Below are positions 11,871 through 20,297 of a DNA stretch of 64,000 nt, piece after piece. Under the pieces are notes generated by a model. It saw nothing but the letters and a program-made list of their open reading frames with translations. It did no database searches and had not been told where the DNA came from. Origin of the DNA: Mesoflavibacter sp. Its GTDB lineage: Bacteria; Pseudomonadota; Alphaproteobacteria; UBA8366; Aestuariispiraceae. Position 1 is the stretch's first letter. Every line of letters begins with the position of its first letter. The DNA is taken from assembly GCA_017792345.1 (NCBI GenBank), contig CP051228.1, positions 4,494,148 to 4,558,147 of the forward strand, in the 5' to 3' direction. Both the position numbers and the translations under genes were made by a program.

Positions 11871-13259
11871 TCACCGGTTTCCGCGCAACGAGAACTCGAC
11901 CGGGATCACCAGATCCAGGTGATCGCCTTTCATCGATGGCGGGAAGGTCGGCAGTGGCGCGGCGCGCTCCAGCATCGCCATAGCTTCCTCGTTCAGCGGA
12001 TCGTGTTCGGAAAGATCACGGATCCGCGCATCCTCAATGCGGCCGTCACGGAAGACCCGGAAGGCGATCACGACAATCCCCTGCATCCGTTTACGCCGGG
12101 CCTGCTTGGGATAGGTCTTGTGACGCTCCAGCCAATACCGCAGCTCGGAGATATAGTCCGGAGACGGTGCGGCAACGGCGCCGCCGCCTTCATTGGTCAT
12201 GACGTCCGGAGATTCGCCTACCGGCGCATTTTCAGCGACACCGGCACTGACCTGACCGGCCGCCGCGGATGACGAAGCCGCGGAAGGCGCGTCGACCTGC
12301 GGCGCGGTCTGGGGCGTCGTCGCGGCGTCCGCTTCTGCTTGCTTCGTCACGTCCACTGCGGGTTGCGGTTGCACGACGGGCTCCGCGGTTTGGACCGGCG
12401 GCGTAACGTTCTCCGGCTGGGGCTTTGGCGGTTCCTGTTCCGGCGGCTGAGGCCGAGGAAGAAATGCCGTCTGTTCCGGCTCCGGTTCGGGGACCGGCTC
12501 GGGCACCGGTTCCGGTTCAGGGATCGGGTCGGGCACAGGCTCCGGTTCGGGGACCGGCTCAGGCACGGGCTCCGGTTCGGGGACCGGCTCAGGCACAGGT
12601 TCCGGTTCGGGGACCGGCTCGGGCACCGGTTCCGGTTCAGGGATCGGCTCGGGCACCGGCTCCGGTTCGGGGATCGGCTCAGGCACCGGTTCCGGTTCAG
12701 GGACCGGCTCAGGCACAGGTTCCGGTTCGGGGACCGGCTCGGGCACCGGTTCCGGTTCAGGGATCGGCTCGGGCACCGGCTCCGGTTCGGGGATCGGCTC
12801 AGGCACCGGTTCCGGTTCAGGGACCGGCTCAGGCACAGGTTCCGGTTCAGGGACCGGCTCAGGCACAGGTTCCGGTTCAGGGATCGGCTCAGGCACAGGT
12901 TCCGGTTCAGGGATCGGCTCAGGCACAGGTTCCGGTTCAGGGATCGGCTCGGGCACCGGCTCCGGTTCGGGGACCGGCTCGGATTCTTCCGGTTGAACGT
13001 CATTCGCCGGTCCGAGTTCCTCCGCCGTTTCTTCTTGAGGATTGTCGGAGGGCGGGTCGACCGGGTTATTTTCCGGCTCGTCTTGTCCGCCGTCTCCTCC
13101 GGCCAAGGCGGCCACCATCGTGATCGAGATGTTCTGGCCGCCGACGCCCAAATCTTCCGCGCCCGTGTCGGGTCGCATCGAATAGCCCAGAAACCCAACC
13201 GCGTGCAGACCAATGGCCACGGCAAATGCGACAATCCAAACGACGGGCCGACTTCTCAT
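11871..13259 (-). CDS. tonB: TonB energy transducer with an extended Pro-Glu repeat spacer
   Basis: A 462-residue protein. Residues about 5-25 ([19 protein letters not shown]) are the inner-membrane anchor. A periplasmic spacer follows, with 16 units of a 10-residue EPVPEP(I/V)PEP repeat (about 160 residues, far more than in E. coli TonB). The C-terminal TonB domain includes [22 protein letters not shown] and [14 protein letters not shown]. It transmits ExbB-ExbD motor energy to the outer-membrane receptor encoded at the head of the same operon. Its start overlaps the preceding exbD stop by 4 bp. Confidence 0.92.
12475..12990. repeat. 30-bp tandem repeat encoding the TonB spacer, with an exact 120-bp duplication
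   Basis: About 17 copies of a 30-bp unit (on the plus strand TCCGGTTCGGGGACCGGCTC plus ten more bases) with few substitutions. Positions 12601-12720 and 12721-12840 are identical over 120 bp, a four-unit higher-order duplication. Because the unit is a multiple of three, all frames stay open, which produces long spurious antisense frames here. Confidence 0.95.
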
Positions 13260-13672
13260 GACGCCGTCCGGACGGTGACCAGTTCAATCTTCTGCCAGCC
13301 TGCCTCGCGGATCGATTGCAACACACGCAGCACCTCGACGGCGGATGCCGACGAGTCGGCATGGACGCGCAGAGGGGCGTCCGGATCGACCAGTTGGACA
13401 CGCAGCGCGTCCAGCCCCTCGGGCGTCAGTAGAGCGCCGTCAATTGTCGCCCGCCCTTCCCGGTCGATCTGAACCGTCGCGGCGTTGTTGCGGTCCTTGG
13501 CCTCACTTTCGGAGACAGGCGGCGTAACATCCACCGGCGCCTTTTTGGTGATTTGGCCAGCGATCAGAAAGAAGGACAGCAGCAGAAAGACGATATTGAT
13601 CAGCGGCAGGATGTGATCTTCCGCGTCCCCACCGCGCCGCCGCCGCCGATAGCCATAGGTCATCCGGCTCAT
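13256..13672 (-). CDS. exbD: ExbD/TolR-type protein with Asn at the proton-carrier position
   Basis: A 138-residue single-span protein: basic N-terminus, one membrane segment around residues 21-38, then a periplasmic domain. In the span the conserved LxPLxD reads [16 protein letters not shown], so the residue equal to E. coli ExbD Asp25 is Asn26 (codon AAT). The first ExbD of the same operon keeps Asp27. Asp25 changes in E. coli ExbD inactivate the motor (established), so this copy may act only in a heterodimer. It overlaps its neighbours by 4 bp on both sides. Confidence 0.85.
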
Positions 13673-14094
13673 TGCGGCGTCTCCGGCGGGGGGACCGAGA
13701 TCGAAACGGCGTCGAGGTCGAGGCGCTCGGTTATGTCGAGGACGGTGACCATGTCCTGAAGCGCGGCTTCGTCCAACGGTCGCAACAAGATCCTGCGGCG
13801 ACCGTCTTCCCGAATGCCGGCGCTCAAGGCGCCCGCTTCTACCGCCTGCCCGTCCAGTTTGTATCGGCCCTGGCCCAACAGTTCCAGAACCAGGACATCG
13901 TCGACCGCGGCCGTCCCGGATGCGCGGGACTGGGCTGGCGGCACGAGACCGAGACTGTTGGTCCGCGTGAAGGACGAGGCCAGCATAAAGAAAATGACCA
14001 GAATGAAGACGACGTCGACCAGCGGTGTCAGGCTGATGGCCGCGCGCCGCCGCCCTTTTTTCCGGTGCCGAAGTCTGCCGGTTTCCGCAGTCAC
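13669..14094 (-). CDS. exbD: ExbD/TolR-type proton-channel protein (canonical Asp)
   Basis: A 141-residue protein with a basic N-terminus (RHRKKGRRR), one membrane span and a periplasmic domain. The span contains SLTPLVDVVFILVIFFML with Asp27 as the expected proton carrier. It couples proton flow to TonB together with ExbB. It overlaps exbB and the second exbD by 4 bp each. The second copy differs widely in sequence, so this is not a recent duplication. Confidence 0.88.
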   Translation of the reverse strand: MTAETGRLRHRKKGRRRAAISLTPLVDVVFILVIFFMLASSFTRTNSLGLVPPAQSRASGTAAVDDVLVLELLGQGRYKLDGQAVEAGALSAGIREDGRRRILLRPLDEAALQDMVTVLDITERLDLDAVSISVPPPETPQ

Positions 14095-14744
14095 GCCGAT
14101 GCGCCGTCCAGGTCCGTCAGATAGACTTTGGCGACCAGATTGTCCAATTCATGGGAAAGGATCTCCAGCCGCCGCTCAAAGAAGTTCAGAACCGCCACCG
14201 TCGGAATGGCGACGGCAAGGCCGACAGCGGTCGTCAGCAGCGCCAACCAGATGCCGCCGGACAGAACCGAAGGATCGACCTGATCTCCCGCCGCTTCCAT
14301 TGCCTGGAATGCGTCGATCATGCCCAGCACGGTCCCCAGAAGCCCCAATAGCGGTGCAAGCGTGCCGATGATTTCCAACATGCGCAGATAGCCGCCGAGA
14401 TCCTCGACGGAGCTTTCGGCGACGCGCAGCACCTCGTCCCGGCTGCGCGCCATGTCGCCGCGTCCGGAAAGCTTGCCTTCCATCGCCTGACGCACGATCC
14501 GACAGCGGATGCTGCCCCGTTCCGCCAATGTCAGCGCCCGGTCATACTGACCGTCACGGAAAAGCACCGCGGCCCGGCTGGCCACGGATGCCCGAAACAC
14601 ACCTGCCCGCAGAAACTGCCAGAACTTGACCAACGCCACGGTCAGAGAGACGACGGACAAGGCGCATAGCACATAGACGACGGGTCCGCCCGCGCTCAGA
14701 AACTCGACGCTGTCTTGCAGCAAAACCACGGGGGTTTCGTTCAT
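14091..14744 (-). CDS. exbB: ExbB/TolQ/MotA family proton channel protein
   Basis: The start at 14744 (MNETPVVLLQDSVEF) gives 217 residues and overlaps the DUF2218 stop as ATGA; a 23-codon upstream extension would lie inside that gene. Three membrane spans are visible, near residues 20-42, 125-150 and 165-188. The family core GTLAPLLGLLGTVLGMI and LLTTAVGLAVAIPTVAVLNFF are present. ExbB pentamers with ExbD power TonB. Confidence 0.92.
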   Translation of the reverse strand: MNETPVVLLQDSVEFLSAGGPVVYVLCALSVVSLTVALVKFWQFLRAGVFRASVASRAAVLFRDGQYDRALTLAERGSIRCRIVRQAMEGKLSGRGDMARSRDEVLRVAESSVEDLGGYLRMLEIIGTLAPLLGLLGTVLGMIDAFQAMEAAGDQVDPSVLSGGIWLALLTTAVGLAVAIPTVAVLNFFERRLEILSHELDNLVAKVYLTDLDGASA

Positions 14745-15082
14745 TGTACGGTAAACTCCTTCAGTGACGGCAGCTTGTCGACGGGCAGCGGATCCGGCAG
14801 GCCCTCCTGCCATTCGATGGCGATTTCCTCACGCCAGGCGAATTTGATCAGGTGGCTGTCGATAACGGATTTCATGCGCGGAACGCCTTCATCCACATAG
14901 GCTTCGCAGAAGAAGGAAAGGCCCTCCTCCTCTGCCAACATGAAGCACAATCCGCCCGGGAAGGTGACCCGGCCGATCGTTGTGTCGAATTCCACGGTGA
15001 CCTTGTGGGCGAAGTGTTTGCAAAGCTGCTGCAGATACTTGCTGGCGAATTGCGTGCTGACCTTGGTGTGGCAGTGTTGCAT
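14741..15082 (-). CDS. DUF2218 domain protein of the iron-uptake operon
   Basis: A 113-residue soluble protein. The pattern of an N-terminal KHFAHKVTVEF, a central GGLCFMLAEEEGLSFFCEA and a C-terminal HLIKFAWREEIAIEWQ matches DUF2218, a small cytoplasmic family often found beside siderophore or heme uptake genes. No function is established. It sits between the ABC ATPase (2 bp gap) and exbB (4 bp overlap), so it is made with the transport system. A role in releasing or handling the imported iron compound in the cytoplasm is an inference. Confidence 0.75.
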   Translation of the reverse strand: MQHCHTKVSTQFASKYLQQLCKHFAHKVTVEFDTTIGRVTFPGGLCFMLAEEEGLSFFCEAYVDEGVPRMKSVIDSHLIKFAWREEIAIEWQEGLPDPLPVDKLPSLKEFTVQ

Positions 15083-15084
15083 CC

Positions 15085-15903
15085 CTATTTCTCTCCGCTG
15101 ACCATTTTGAACATTCCATCTGGTGTCGAGTCGGTGTTTTCAGCCCCGTCCACCAGGACGATCGGCTGCCCTTTAGAGCAGGTTTCCACCCGGCCACTGA
15201 CGTCATAGGCGTCTTTCAGAACGTCCGTCGTCAGCGCCTTGGAAGGAGGACCGAAGGCGATGCGCCTCCCCTTTCCCATAATTGCGACTAAGTCGCAATA
15301 TCGAACTGCAAGATTCAGATCGTGCAAGGCGACCAGGCAGATGCCTCCCCGTGCCTGCAGACGGCGCCTCAAAATCTGGAACACCGTGACCTGCCATTTT
15401 AGATCCAACGCGCTGCTCGGCTCGTCCAGAAGAAGAACTTGCGGGTCGCGAACCAGGATCTGGGCCAATCCGACAAGTTGACGCTGACCGCCGGACATTT
15501 GGCTCAATGGCCGGAAAGCCAGGTCTTCCAGTTCCAATTGTTCGAAAACCTGTTCGGCGGATTGCGCCACCTGCGCACCGGTCAGTTCCGGCCGGGCCGC
15601 GCGGCAGGAACTGACCACCAGTTCATAAGCGACGAAGCCGGACAGGATCGGCGGCGATTGGGGCATGAACCCGATCAACCGAGTGCGATCGCGATGGGGA
15701 AGGCCTGAAACTTCCTTGCCGTCCAGACGAATGGACCCGGCATACCGGGACAGGCCGCTGACCGCGCGAAGAAAGGTCGATTTTCCCGCCCCATTCGGCC
15801 CCAGAACGCCGACGAGGTTGCCGTCGGTCATGGTTGGAAAGGAGACACCTTCCAGGACCCGCGACTTGCCATAGGCCAGCGTGACATCGTTGACGTCCAA
15901 CAT
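15085..15903 (-). CDS. ABC transporter ATPase, FecE/BtuD-like
   Basis: A 272-residue ATPase for import of a siderophore, heme or cobalamin-type substrate. Walker A is GPNGAGKST, the signature is MSGGQRQLVGLAQIL, Walker B is VLLLDEPSSALD, and the H-loop is ALHDLNLA. The subfamily is typical of FecCD-type importers. It shares one base with the permease stop. Confidence 0.92.
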   Translation of the reverse strand: MLDVNDVTLAYGKSRVLEGVSFPTMTDGNLVGVLGPNGAGKSTFLRAVSGLSRYAGSIRLDGKEVSGLPHRDRTRLIGFMPQSPPILSGFVAYELVVSSCRAARPELTGAQVAQSAEQVFEQLELEDLAFRPLSQMSGGQRQLVGLAQILVRDPQVLLLDEPSSALDLKWQVTVFQILRRRLQARGGICLVALHDLNLAVRYCDLVAIMGKGRRIAFGPPSKALTTDVLKDAYDVSGRVETCSKGQPIVLVDGAENTDSTPDGMFKMVSGEK

Positions 15904-17000
15904 CAGCGACGTCCCTTGCGCATCTGGGTCAGCACCAGGATCAGGAACATCGGCACACCGACCAGCGCCGTGACAATGCCGTCCGGAATGATGATCCCCG
16001 GGATGATCGATTTGCTGGCGACCGATGCGCCGGACAGGATGATCGCGCCAGCAAGGATCGACCCCGGAAGGAAATAGCGATGATCCTCGCCACAGACCAA
16101 GCGCGCGATATGCGGCCCGACCAGGCCGACAAAGCCGATAACGCCGGTGAACGCGACCGCTACGGCGGCCAGGACGCTGACCCGGAACAGGGTTACGAGA
16201 CGCAGTCGTTCAACCTGGACGCCGGCACTGCGGGCATATTCCTCTCCCCCGCGCAGGGCGGTCAGACGCCAGATCTGCATGGCCGAAAAGAAGGAACAGA
16301 CCGCCAGAACGACCGCGATAATCAGGATCTTCTGCCAGGTCGCGCGGGCGAGGCTCCCCATGGTCCAGAAGACGATCTGCTGCAGGCTGTTCGAATCCGC
16401 GACGAACTGGATCAATGACACCAGCGCCTGAAGGGCGAACACCATGGCGATGCCGAACAGGATGACGATCTCTAGCGACGCCCCGTAGAGCCGCGACAGA
16501 AGTTGAATCAGGGACATTGCCGCGACGGCCCCAAGGAAGGCGAACAGGGGTGTCACGTAATCCTCCGGCAGACCGAACGGCCCTGCCAGGTCGAAGGCGA
16601 TCGCGATGGACGCCCCCAGCGTCGCCGCATAGGAGATTCCAAGGGTCGCGGGGCTGGCCAACGGGTTGTTCAGCACGGTCTGCATTTCCGCGCCTGCCAA
16701 GCCCAGACAGGCGCCGACCACGACCGCCATCACGGCAAAGGGCAGCCGCACGTCCCAGATGATCACATGCAACGCCGACGTCAGGCTTTCCGGATCGATC
16801 AGACCGTTGACGACCTGCATCACCGGCAGCCCGGCCGGGCCCGACGCCACATTGACGACGAAGGTCACCGCCAAGATCACGACGAACAGGATCAGCCAGG
16901 CCAAACGCCGGAACTGAAACCGTTTGTACCGATCTGAAAGCGAACGGGGCGGCAAAGGTTCTGCCGCCCCCGAACCAACAATATGACCACTGTTACTCAT
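15903..17000 (-). CDS. FecCD-family ABC permease
   Basis: A 365-residue inner-membrane protein with roughly ten hydrophobic spans. The FecCD hallmark GACLGLAGAEMQTVLNNPLASPATLGIS occurs around residue 97, and the conserved GFVGLVGPHIAR is near the cytoplasmic coupling helix. It probably forms a homodimer, as only one permease gene is present. It overlaps the binding-protein gene by 8 bp. The substrate class (ferric siderophore, heme or corrinoid) is set by family only. Confidence 0.93.
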   Translation of the reverse strand: MSNSGHIVGSGAAEPLPPRSLSDRYKRFQFRRLAWLILFVVILAVTFVVNVASGPAGLPVMQVVNGLIDPESLTSALHVIIWDVRLPFAVMAVVVGACLGLAGAEMQTVLNNPLASPATLGISYAATLGASIAIAFDLAGPFGLPEDYVTPLFAFLGAVAAMSLIQLLSRLYGASLEIVILFGIAMVFALQALVSLIQFVADSNSLQQIVFWTMGSLARATWQKILIIAVVLAVCSFFSAMQIWRLTALRGGEEYARSAGVQVERLRLVTLFRVSVLAAVAVAFTGVIGFVGLVGPHIARLVCGEDHRYFLPGSILAGAIILSGASVASKSIIPGIIIPDGIVTALVGVPMFLILVLTQMRKGRR

Positions 17001-18144
17001 CTGAATCGCCGTTCAACGATATCCAATAGACGCCATCCAAGGGGACCGGCTGAAACCTCTCGAAATAGGTTCTCAGCGTGTCGCGTGGTGAAAGGTCCGC
17101 GAACCGGTCCGGATGAAGCTGTTTTGCCATGGCCTGTACGGCCGCGACATTCATCGGCGTGTTGTAGAAATGGTGCCAAATGGCGAAGGCCTTGCCGTCC
17201 TGTACGGCCGACAATTCGTTCAACCCCTTGCGCTCGCGTACATGCGCCAGACTGTCCCGCGCGGTTTCCGCCGCGACCCCGGCGCCCAGAACGACCCGCT
17301 CCGGGAACTTGTCGACGGTATCGGGCGAACCGATGGCGGTGGCGAAGTAATGATCGGGCTGATGGGTCAGCAGATATTCCAGGGCAACCGTGCCATGGGT
17401 CCCCGGGATCTGTTCACCCAGCAAATTGACACCGCCTGCCCAATCGATGAACCGGCCCATCATTTTGTTACCCATCGCCTCGCAGCAATCGGGCCGCAAC
17501 CCGACACGGGATTCGAGGAAAACCGACGGCCGCTCGGTCACGCCGTCCAGGCCGGCACTGACCTTTGCCAGGTTCTCCTCATAGAACGCGATGAACTCCT
17601 CCGCCTCGTCCTCACGATCCATCAATTTGCCCAGCAGGCGCAGGCTGACCGGCGTATTGGCCAAGGGCTCGATCCGGAAGTCGATAAAGACGACCGGAAT
17701 TCCGGCCGCTTCCAACTTTTCGATAATGTCCGTATGGCGTTCGCTGGGGCTGTGACCGCTGCCGATCCCAAGTAGGACCATGTCCGGCTGCTGACTGACC
17801 ACGGTTTCCAGGCTGAATGTGTAGGACCCGCTTTTTCCGACCCGCGCGATGTCGTCCAGGCTGGGGAAGTACCGCGAGAAATAGGCATAACCGGCCGCAT
17901 CGAACTGTTCGAAATCCCCCATCATCCCGACGATACGGGCGGTAGGGTCATCGCGATCCAGAATGCCCAGGGACGGCAGAAAGCGCCCCTCGCCCAGAAC
18001 GATCCGTTCCACCGGCACCGCGACTTCTACCGTGCGGCCGGCCAAGTCGGTGATAGTGACAAGGTCCTTCGCTTGCGCCGAAACGGCGACGATAAAAATC
18101 GCCGCCGCCCCAGCCACGCCAAAAATGCGCGACAGATTCATCAT
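16993..18144 (-). CDS. Periplasmic iron-complex binding protein of an ABC importer
   Basis: The start is the ATG at 18144 (MMNLSRIFGV), overlapping the receptor stop as ATGA; this gives 383 residues, whereas the long upstream open frame is a shadow of the receptor gene. Residues 1-27 are a signal peptide (FGVAGAAAIFIVAVSAQA) without lipobox. The mature part has the type III binding-protein layout: ITDLAGRTVEVAVPVERIV at the start, then PDMVLLG and GIPVVFIDF. It delivers the ligand from the receptor to the FecCD permease. Confidence 0.9.
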   Translation of the reverse strand: MMNLSRIFGVAGAAAIFIVAVSAQAKDLVTITDLAGRTVEVAVPVERIVLGEGRFLPSLGILDRDDPTARIVGMMGDFEQFDAAGYAYFSRYFPSLDDIARVGKSGSYTFSLETVVSQQPDMVLLGIGSGHSPSERHTDIIEKLEAAGIPVVFIDFRIEPLANTPVSLRLLGKLMDREDEAEEFIAFYEENLAKVSAGLDGVTERPSVFLESRVGLRPDCCEAMGNKMMGRFIDWAGGVNLLGEQIPGTHGTVALEYLLTHQPDHYFATAIGSPDTVDKFPERVVLGAGVAAETARDSLAHVRERKGLNELSAVQDGKAFAIWHHFYNTPMNVAAVQAMAKQLHPDRFADLSPRDTLRTYFERFQPVPLDGVYWISLNGDSDE

Positions 18145-20168
18145 CAGAAATCCACCTTCGCGGTCACGACATAGCTGCGACCCGGCGCGTTGAAGGGCGT
18201 TGCGGCCGAGTTGTCCACGGCCGACGTCGCCCGGTCGACATACAATTCGTTGAACAGGTTCCGCACGTCGAAACGTACGGTCAGCGCATCGAAATCGACG
18301 GGCTGATACTGCGCGAAGATGTCCGCGACGAAGTAGGATTTCGTCGGGAACTCTTGATTGGTGTCGTCTTCGAAGGCGTATTCCCCGCTGGCGCCTAGCG
18401 CGACGCCGATTTCCGGCCATTCGCGGACGACATCGACCGTCGCCGTATTGCCCATCTGCAGCCCATGATAGGACGCGTCACCACTTGCCATGGGCGTACC
18501 GTCGGAGCGGAACCGGTTGTGCGAATAGGTCGCCCGGACATAACCGATCTCTTCCTGATACTTGCCGGCAACGTTGAAACCCCAAGCCTTCAGATCACGT
18601 GTGATGTTGCGATAGGCCGACCCGCGGTCATGGCTGCCCTTGATTTCCGTCTGATAGACATGGAAATCGCCTGACAGATTGCCGTCCTCTACCTTCGCGC
18701 CCGCTTTGTAGTTGTATGAGCGCGAGGAACTCAGATCGTCATACTGCCATTGGCCGGCAAAGTTATAGATTTGGGATTCGCCCAGAGGAATAGGGCCGTA
18801 GGTACTGGCCGCACCGGCATAACCCGTCAGCCAAGTCAGAACGTCATATTCCAGGTTTGCACTGGCGCTGGGGCCGCCACCAGACAACGTCGTGCCGTCC
18901 ACACCCTCGAAGTGTTGCTGGTCATAACGAAGACCCAGAGTGCTTCGAAGCCGGGGCGACCAGTTCTGACGCGTCTGAACGAAGACGCCAAAATTGTCGG
19001 AGGTTTCGGTGTTCACGCGCGGCACTGTGGCGGCCGCGAAAATGCCGTTGTTCTCGCCGCGCCCCACATCGCGATAGAAATCCGTCCCGACCGTCACGCT
19101 ACCGCTATCGGCCAGCCCCAGTCCGGTAGAGAAGGTATTCGCGACCTTGCCGCTATAGCTTTTGGTTTGGGACCGAAAATTGAACCGGAAGTTTCCGAAA
19201 GCCAGATCGTGAATGAATAGGTCTGTTTCGGTATAGCTCAGCACGATCTCGGGATTGACGTATTCCGTCGGCGCCTCGTCCCGATAGGACAGCGTGAAGT
19301 GCTTGCGATTGTATTCCTGAAGCGTCGGGTCCGCGCCGTTGTTCAGCGACCCGAAATTGGCGCGGTTCGGCCGGATGCCCTTGTCTTCCAGGTAGCCCGC
19401 GTTGAACTCCAGGCGGCTACCGGTATTGCCGGTCCAGGCGGCCTTGCCCATGCTGTTGCGCATGTTCGGGCGGGTGCCTTCGACCTCATCGCCATTGGCG
19501 TCGTTATAGTTCCGGCCACCATCGATCGAACCATAGACCAGCGCCTCGAAATTCTCGTGCTGCCCGGCAACGGTCAGCGCCTGCGACAGGGTGCGGCCGT
19601 TGCTTCCCGCCTGGGTCCTGGAGAACCCGCCCAGCATTTCATCGATCTCAAGGATGTCGCGCGCATCTTTCGTTTCATAGGCGATCGAGCCGCCCAATGC
19701 GCCCGGCCCGACATCGACCGGCCCGACGCCGGTTTCGACCGAGACGGATTTCAACATGCCCGGATCGATGATTGCAGTGCCCAGATGGTGGAAGGCGGAG
19801 TTCACCTGGCGGGAGTCGTCCATCTTCACACTGAGGTTCGTATCCTCAATGCCGTTGACGTAGATCTTGCGCGACACGTCCGAGCCACCGCCGACGTGAA
19901 TCGACGATTCGCCGCGGAAGACGTCCTGGATGTTTGCCGGGTTCTGGCGATCCAACTGTTCCTGGGTGATGCTCACGCCGCCCGGCGCCACCTCGGTCGC
20001 CGTAACCGAGATCGGCGCCATGATGACGGCCTCTTCGGTTTCCGTCTTTTCCTGCGCCTGCGCGGCGACGCTGAATGCGGTCAGCGCAGCGCAGCTCATC
20101 AATGCCATGCGGAAAAAATTCGACGGAGTATTCTTGCGCAGTTCTTGCGCGACGTCGGCTCTGCCCAT
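18144..20168 (-). CDS. TonB-dependent outer-membrane receptor
   Basis: The start chosen is the ATG at 20168 with a strong GGAGGGTGG site upstream, giving 674 residues; an in-frame start 32 codons upstream would run through the Fur-like box. A signal peptide ends at about AAQAQ. A TonB-box-like PISVTATEVAP is followed by a plug domain (IQDVFRGESSIHVGG, GALGGSIAYET) and a 22-strand-type barrel ending in the usual terminal Phe (VVTAKVDF). The plug resembles heme and siderophore receptors. It is the first gene of a nine-gene operon running to tonB. Confidence 0.93.
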   Translation of the reverse strand: MGRADVAQELRKNTPSNFFRMALMSCAALTAFSVAAQAQEKTETEEAVIMAPISVTATEVAPGGVSITQEQLDRQNPANIQDVFRGESSIHVGGGSDVSRKIYVNGIEDTNLSVKMDDSRQVNSAFHHLGTAIIDPGMLKSVSVETGVGPVDVGPGALGGSIAYETKDARDILEIDEMLGGFSRTQAGSNGRTLSQALTVAGQHENFEALVYGSIDGGRNYNDANGDEVEGTRPNMRNSMGKAAWTGNTGSRLEFNAGYLEDKGIRPNRANFGSLNNGADPTLQEYNRKHFTLSYRDEAPTEYVNPEIVLSYTETDLFIHDLAFGNFRFNFRSQTKSYSGKVANTFSTGLGLADSGSVTVGTDFYRDVGRGENNGIFAAATVPRVNTETSDNFGVFVQTRQNWSPRLRSTLGLRYDQQHFEGVDGTTLSGGGPSASANLEYDVLTWLTGYAGAASTYGPIPLGESQIYNFAGQWQYDDLSSSRSYNYKAGAKVEDGNLSGDFHVYQTEIKGSHDRGSAYRNITRDLKAWGFNVAGKYQEEIGYVRATYSHNRFRSDGTPMASGDASYHGLQMGNTATVDVVREWPEIGVALGASGEYAFEDDTNQEFPTKSYFVADIFAQYQPVDFDALTVRFDVRNLFNELYVDRATSAVDNSAATPFNAPGRSYVVTAKVDF

Positions 20169-20204
20169 CGGCCCACCCTCCTGAAAAACACCAAAACTGA
20201 GAGT

Positions 20205-20226
20205 GAGACTGATTATCAATGCGAAT
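20205..20226 (-). promoter_or_regulatory. Fur-like box upstream of the TonB operon
   Basis: On the minus strand the sequence reads GCATTGATAATCAGTCTCA, closely resembling classical Fur sites built on GATAATCATTATC-type hexamers. It lies about 37-58 bp upstream of the receptor start, where it would cover the promoter. Iron-repressed expression of the whole nine-gene operon is the expected result. Confidence 0.65.
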
Positions 20227-20297
20227 CGATCTCGACCATCGCGGCGAGATTCGCGCATTCGCAAAAAGCTTTATAGAAAACTCACAGGGGCTTGCGA

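Follow-up and report, generated by a model that had tools for sequence, protein, structure and literature searches.

Tandem ExbD pairs with Asp and Asn at the proton-carrier site recur in Alpha- and Gammaproteobacteria and may form a half-sited Ton motor

Two unlike ExbD proteins, one with Asp and the other with Asn at the proton-carrier site, are encoded side by side in a 64,000-nucleotide stretch of DNA from Mesoflavibacter sp. (contig CP051228.1; hereafter the window), and this Asp/Asn pair recurs regularly across the family in Alpha- and Gammaproteobacteria rather than being confined to the window operon. We propose, with moderate confidence, that the two proteins, ExbD1 and ExbD2, form an obligate heterodimer in a single ExbB pentamer, so that the Ton motor would have only one site for protons. 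The analysis establishes gene order, residues, conservation, predicted fold, the single ExbB per pair and the scarcity of unpaired Asn copies; the heterodimer and the single site, as well as the stroke scheme and the placement of TonB set out below, are inferred.

The pair lies between exbB and tonB in an iron/heme-type uptake operon. Its order on the minus strand is receptor, binding protein, FecCD permease, ABC ATPase, DUF2218 protein, ExbB, ExbD1, ExbD2 and TonB, and an AraC-type regulator stands on the plus strand, past TonB. The genes, by position in the window, are:

11871..13259, minus strand, TonB (PF03544, 50.6 bits; TIGR01352, 53.6 bits)
13256..13672, minus strand, ExbD2, 138 aa, ATG start (PF02472, 68.8 bits)
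13669..14094, minus strand, ExbD1, 141 aa, GTG start (PF02472, 65.7 bits)
14091..14813, minus strand, ExbB (PF01618, 102 bits)
14741..15082, minus strand, DUF2218 protein (PF09981, 99.6 bits)
15085..15903, minus strand, ABC transporter ATPase of the heme/siderophore type (PF00005; the best NCBIfam model, heme ABC ATPase NF010068, matches below its cut-off)
15903..17000, minus strand, FecCD-type permease (PF01032, 267 bits)
16993..18420, minus strand, periplasmic binding protein (PF01497, 50.5 bits; NF010649 below cut-off); ORF as listed, the true start probably lying further downstream
18144..20264, minus strand, TonB-dependent outer-membrane receptor (PF00593, 91 bits; PF07715, 49 bits; TonB-hemin family TIGR01785 below cut-off); ORF as listed

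In a Pfam scan of ten window proteins, this ExbB was the sole MotA/TolQ/ExbB gene found in the operon, and a second ExbB-like gene, the mark of a TtpC-type TonB2 system, was absent from the ten proteins scanned. The remaining ExbD/TolR matches in the source genome, namely TolR, matched twice, and one ExbD in a second ExbB/ExbD locus, all carry Asp.

The preliminary description of this DNA had pointed to two unlike ExbDs overlapping by 4 bp and differing at one aligned site, and the coordinates and codons confirm it. The overlap is the ATGA at 13672-13669; ExbD1 carries Asp27 (codon GAC, 14016-14014) in the motif SLTPLVDVVF, ExbD2 carries Asn26 (codon AAT, 13597-13595) in the motif ILPLINIVF, and the two residues align, each three positions past the conserved Pro. 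Both copies score above the gathering cut-off of the Pfam ExbD family PF02472 (25.4 bits), and both fall far below the cut-offs of the NCBIfam equivalogs for ExbD and TolR, their best scores being 28.0 (ExbD1) and 37.8 (ExbD2) against a cut-off of 127.3 bits (TIGR02801). Single-chain AF2 models of the two proteins (mean pLDDT 80, pTM 0.54-0.55) show a transmembrane helix, predicted at residues 21-41 of ExbD2, followed by the ExbD periplasmic fold. The best Foldseek matches are 8PEK for ExbD2 (8.2e-06) and the TolR structure 5BY4 for ExbD1 (5.2e-04), the models also match the solved domains 8P9R and 8VGC, and profile searches match 7AJQ and 6TYI. The proton-carrying Asp in the transmembrane helix that characterizes ExbD/TolR proteins is present in ExbD1 and absent from ExbD2, which on its sequence and predicted fold is an ExbD homologue without the proton-binding residue.

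Sequencing error at the AAT codon, a concern of the preliminary description, is excluded because the two closest ExbD2 relatives, 72% and 57% identical and from other genomes of the genus, have Asn too; a chance Asn is likewise ruled out by these relatives, by the Asn-type loci read in the same order and by the 165 Asp/Asn pairs among 182 tandem pairs. Within this order, where 43 genomes were searched with ExbD2, all 16 Asn-type loci read are immediately preceded by an Asp-type ExbD, and L186 brings the number of Asn-type loci to 17. In the alignment of this order, window included, Asn occupies the site in 16/16 second copies and Asp in 16/16 first copies; the order also holds a tandem Asp/Asp pair of another type (L031).

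Recurrence of the pair in orthologous operons, which the preliminary description had proposed as a check, extends well beyond the order. In 243 loci, 198 tandem ExbD pairs were found, reduced to 182 distinct ones by the removal of 16 repeats, and these comprise 165 Asp/Asn, 14 Asp/Asp and one Asp/Ser pair, as well as two with an incomplete first copy (L063, a broken frame on a draft contig, and L149, at a contig end). The Asp copy comes first in all Asp/Asn pairs, and every one of the 180 pairs whose first copy is complete carries Asp in it. A scan of named contigs with a peptide pattern that contains Asn returned at least 591 stretches, at least 541 of them encoding relatives, and the best 80 of these are, by title, mostly from Alpha- and Gammaproteobacteria. 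As the pattern that retrieved these 80 loci (L036-L115) already included the Asn, they are uninformative on Asn frequency, and the invariant columns of the alignment A3 are partly built in by the same pattern. Plasmids carry the pair as well: 19 plasmid records match ExbD2, the annotated ones among the 15 listed being named 'biopolymer transporter ExbD', and plasmids of Leisingera sp. S132 and Ruegeria sp. AD91A hold exbB, two exbD genes and tonB in the order of the window, with Asp and Asn at the site. A DUF2218 gene also adjoins one plasmid Asp/Asn operon. No relative was matched on viral contigs.

Outside the pattern-derived set there are 90 Asp/Asn pairs, one incomplete/Asn, 14 Asp/Asp and one Asp/Ser. 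When six Asp/Asp pairs of other ExbD families are set aside (L031, L170, L175, L179, L180 and L182), the site in the 100 members of the second-copy type reads Asn in 91, Asp in eight and Ser in one, a split drawn from searches that used the Pfam profile, a profile of Asn copies or ExbD2 itself, with some regions hand-picked among the matches listed. The eight Asp/Asp pairs whose second copy clusters on the tree with the other second copies are L157, L230, L191, L198, L201, L203, L211 and L219, of which the last six form one Rhodobacteraceae-type branch. Orthologues with Asp in both copies, named beforehand as evidence against a dedicated Asp/Asn pair, do therefore occur, but as a minority only. 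Asn at the second-copy site is usual and not indispensable, since eight Asp members and one Ser member exist; the Asp/Asp exceptions are real. These same exceptions lend something to a reading in which the heterodimer matters but the identity of the second residue hardly does: a single Asp would suffice, and various polar residues would be tolerated in the other position, leaving the Asn close to neutral. We consider that reading quite unlikely, as 91 of the 100 second copies have Asn, and the other residues one step away from it (Lys, Thr, His, Tyr and Ile) stand at the site in no pair.

The codons and the surrounding residues indicate that the Asp/Asn pattern is under selection. In the 165 pairs the Asn codon is AAC in 97 and AAT in 68, and a single transition would turn either into an Asp codon; because both codons occur though Asp lies only one transition away, Asn has persisted across silent changes. 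The conserved neighbours of the Asn in the 91 copies outside the pattern-derived set (P in 90/91, I in 89, F in 86 and L in 90) vary no more than their counterparts around the Asp. Decay of the second copy is ruled out by this conservation of the helix around the Asn, and the Asn copy looks like a working part rather than a relic. Deamidation of Asn26 to Asp after translation would turn the pair into an ordinary motor, and Asn deamidation is known chemistry. Bulky beta-branched neighbours slow the reaction, though, and the residue after the Asn is Val or Ile in 91/91 copies; the site also lies inside a membrane helix, and a one-base change would give Asp directly, all of which makes deamidation scarcely credible here.

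The Asn copy is seldom met without its partner. The one Asn-type ExbD with no ExbD partner (L085) sits on a draft contig, on a stretch that holds no ExbB either, and two further Asn-type members, L063 and L149, have an incomplete partner. Two extra second-type ExbDs outside a pair carry Asp: the lone copy of L032/L190 (of the second type by tree for L032), with no adjoining ExbB, has Asp together with a first-type helix start, and so does the spare copy of L050 (L050:3103-3618), whose periplasmic domain is, by eye, of the second type. Such a distribution is what a requirement for one Asp or more per motor would predict, albeit in few cases. Exactly one ExbB ORF, on the same strand and within 3 kb, accompanies 164 of the 165 Asp/Asn pairs, the exception being L021, which has no ExbB beside the pair within the same limits. 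If the start codon closest to the stop is assumed, 61 of the 165 pairs show a 4-bp overlap between the two exbD genes, 17 show an overlap of a single base pair, and 80 have a spacing of 0-30 bp. An ORF that fuses two ExbDs (L138) was considered as proof of contact and rejected, as it reads through a scrambled stretch, is probably a draft-assembly frameshift and was left out of the counts.

The ExbBs of these loci keep the pore threonines. Residues equivalent to Thr148 and Thr181 are Thr in all 159 aligned ExbBs of Asp/Asn loci, a further five of the 164 being gapped there. In the window ExbB both pore threonines are present and the equivalent of Glu176 is Leu; loss of this Glu was rejected as a hallmark of Asp/Asn motors, as Glu is kept in 106/159 aligned ExbBs of such loci and is also missing in other ExbBs.

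These observations bear on a rival in which the Asn copy resides in proton-dead complexes of its own, as an Asn/Asn dimer in ExbB or free, and serves as regulator, peptidoglycan anchor or TonB parking site, the work being done by ExbD1 homodimers. A complete, ExbD-like predicted periplasmic domain in ExbD2 would suit such a role, as would the case of Xanthomonas, whose second exbD serves a function other than iron uptake (PMC3551730). Set against these are the presence of one ExbB for both copies in 164 of 165 loci, equal conservation of the transmembrane helix in the two copies and the rarity of Asn copies lacking an Asp copy. We regard separate complexes as unlikely, while giving them slightly more credence than a near-neutral Asn.

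In a tree of 133 rows and 134 columns, in which 77 of 130 inner branches are open, first and second copies form two broad groups, and among the 40 Asp/Asn pairs sampled there the lone exception is the first copy of L161; the remaining pairs were grouped by type. Support is modest, with SH-aLRT values of 82 for the split between first and second copies and 93 for the second-copy group, neither of them starred. Because the copies fall into two such groups, the pairing of the two ExbDs probably arose long ago and has been maintained since. The tree is compatible with the Asp of some second-group members being either ancestral or a reversion. Mean-field coupling over the 165 pairs placed inter-protein pairs at ranks 2, 3 and 7 overall. 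When partners were permuted in eight runs, a null that strips shared ancestry, the top inter-protein score fell below the observed second in 8/8 and below the observed third in 7/8. Against a null simulated on the real, shared tree, however, 9 of 12 top inter-protein scores exceeded the observed 6.7 (range 6.2 to 11.3), and the coupling signal lends no support to the heterodimer because these simulations mostly exceed it. Random assembly, in which Asp/Asp, Asp/Asn and Asn/Asn dimers would form in one ExbB pool and the Asn copy would tune the share of active motors, fits with the same predicted fold in both copies and with genes that are adjacent or overlapping, but two separate tree groups, albeit modestly supported, suit fixed partners better. 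It receives slightly less credence from us than a near-neutral Asn.

TonB was found for 133 of the 165 Asp/Asn pairs, with a membrane helix in 129. The pore-binding His is present in 96% of these 129 TonBs and is followed by a Gly-rich D-box-like strand, which fits a stricter pattern in 54 and a loose one in 100. The window TonB has the transmembrane-helix His, the strand NISITMV, D-box-like by position and pattern alone, a long linker of Glu-Pro repeats and the TonB C-terminal domain. These strands may act as a D-box. Uptake genes like those of the window are not a feature of all Asp/Asn operons, and a homologue of its receptor, binding protein, permease or ATPase was detected in only 14 of the 51 loci longer than 9 kb (phmmer, 1e-5). 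A recurring family of receptor-sized genes is likewise present in 14 of the 51, and one member is a Pfam-confirmed TonB-dependent receptor.

With the canonical Ton motor of E. coli (6TYI; 9DDO-9DDQ), the window operon shares the same three families, the pore threonines and a TonB with membrane His and D-box-like strand. It differs in having two unlike ExbD genes, one with Asn at the Asp25 site. Two exbD genes are likewise found in ton operons of Xanthomonas, Sphingobium and Myxococcus (PMC3551730, PMC8599685 and PMC8546572). Both Sphingobium copies retain Asp25, unlike those of the window (PMC8599685), and the likeness of the Xanthomonas operon, whose exbD2 is dispensable for iron uptake (PMC3551730), and of the Myxococcus ton operon (PMC8546572) is one of gene number. 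The AglRQS motor of Myxococcus combines one TolQ-like with two TolR-like subunits, as hetero- or homodimers; AglQ and AglS are jointly described with a conserved Asp, and the role is in gliding, not uptake (PMC9389320). For TolQ-like motors with vWA domains, paired transpore-helix vWA subunits with Asp in both have been proposed within one 5:2 motor, and the PVC group has heterologous tolR-like gene pairs beside vWA transducers, for which the available text of the same source gives no residue at the site; unlike the window operon, these systems have no TonB (PMC12204202). Three tandem Asp/Asp loci of our own collection (L170, L175 and L182) resemble the window in carrying extra motor genes in a ton operon, and differ from it in having two ExbB-like genes and Asp in both ExbDs. 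We take them to be TonB2/TtpC-like. Tandem exbD genes are thus already known; searches of open-licence literature, most on ExbD and some on MotB or Agl, showed no account of the Asp/Asn pairing, which is weak evidence that it is unreported.

In the rotary models published for ExbBD and MotAB, two equivalent Asp residues take up protons alternately, 36 degrees apart (PMC9022066 and PMC12215075). The two Asp residues are placed in unlike surroundings, one touching a pore Thr and the other facing the cytoplasmic cavity (PMC12215075), and replacement of the MotB Asp by Asn is a standard mimic of the protonated state (PMC9389320 and PMC9022066). TonB, ExbB and ExbD assemble at 1:5:2, and a single D-box pairs with the C-terminal strand of each of the two ExbD protomers (PMC12905483).

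In the heterodimer that we prefer, ExbD1 with Asp27 and ExbD2 with Asn26 would be made together and occupy both ExbD places in one ExbB pentamer. Periplasmic protons would reach the Asp of ExbD1 alone, beside the conserved ExbB pore threonines, and the neutral Asn of ExbD2 would act as a permanent equivalent of a protonated Asp. Protonation and release at this single Asp would drive the step, and the Asn side would pass without a proton or serve as a fixed return. One TonB, with a D-box inserted between the periplasmic domains of ExbD1 and ExbD2, would face chemically distinct halves, so that force on TonB would always come from the same side. The earlier suggestion that such a motor fires once rather than twice per cycle captured the asymmetry too simply: from the published model (PMC9022066), in which the two Asp alternate every 36 degrees, the expectation would be that each turn takes five proton steps rather than ten, or that one stroke is followed by a reset.

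The case for the heterodimer thus draws on the 165 Asp/Asn pairs among 182, with Asp always first, on one ExbB in 164 of 165 loci and on Asn copies that are nearly never unpaired. Against it count the coupling, no better than the tree null, the eight Asp and one Ser second copies, the loci L085 and L021, and the Xanthomonas tandem copy, whose dispensability for iron uptake would fit a separate role (PMC3551730). The fuller picture, to which we assign somewhat less than an even chance, is that of a naturally half-sited and widespread Ton motor, composed of an ExbB pentamer, an Asp-ExbD, an Asn-ExbD and TonB, in which a permanently asymmetric axle either completes a turn in five proton steps or, instead of rotating, rocks to and fro by one step, with TonB always held on a defined side.

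An Asp/Asn motor of this kind would be a natural test of the assumption, made in rotary models, of two equivalent Asp residues. Should its stroke prove to be the same, a second site alternating with the first would be unnecessary; should it rock instead of turning, a Ton motor need not be a rotor. Such a motor, if real, would also offer a handle on how one TonB picks a side of the ExbD dimer.

The start of the single contig of the genome holding the window recurs near the contig end, from about position 4,849,132, with 99.9-100% identity over the whole 6 kb compared (G000:C1:1-6000, L244, against G000:C1:4846500-4855500, L245). One copy carries a stretch of about 233 bases twice; the repeat is probably an untrimmed circular overlap, and the window falls outside it.

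The window TonB (11871-13259, minus strand) has a long, regular linker of Glu-Pro/Val-Pro repeats (12480-12990), encoded by near-identical DNA repeats. Among loci longer than 9 kb with an Asp/Asn pair, that is, tandem ExbDs with Asp at the proton site of the first copy and Asn at the aligned site of the second, 9 of 51 share a recurrent secreted-looking protein of 139-255 aa as called, with the core motif ELNKLE...CR.YL. No Pfam match was found for the L060 copy, the single member scanned.

Positions of the secreted-looking protein
Upstream of exbB: L041, L042, L043, L044, L052, L103, L110
Downstream of tonB: L060:7000-7485; L097:6380-6829

Two ExbDs combine a first-type Asp helix with a second-type periplasmic domain, one being a third ExbD that precedes exbB (L050:3103-3618) and the other standing alone (L032:1489-1911). 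An orphan Asn-type ExbD lies on a draft Abyssibacter contig (L085:637-1035), with neither an ExbD nor an ExbB adjoining it there. For the Asp/Asn pair of L021, from another genome (G001), no ExbB was found within the examined stretch. Directly upstream of the pair lies a reading frame of some 313 aa whose start resembles a signal sequence; the ExbB must therefore be located elsewhere.

A ton operon of Rhodobacteraceae type carries Asp in both ExbDs (L191, L198, L201, L203, L211, L219); the conserved Pro of its second ExbD is replaced by Ala, and its ExbB has Gln at the Glu176 position. The window ExbB (14091-14813, minus strand) has Leu at the equivalent position. Across 159 aligned ExbBs of Asp/Asn operons, this site is occupied by Glu in 106, Val in 22, Gln in 12, Leu in 10, Ala in 8 and Ile in 1, and Glu is therefore not universally kept.
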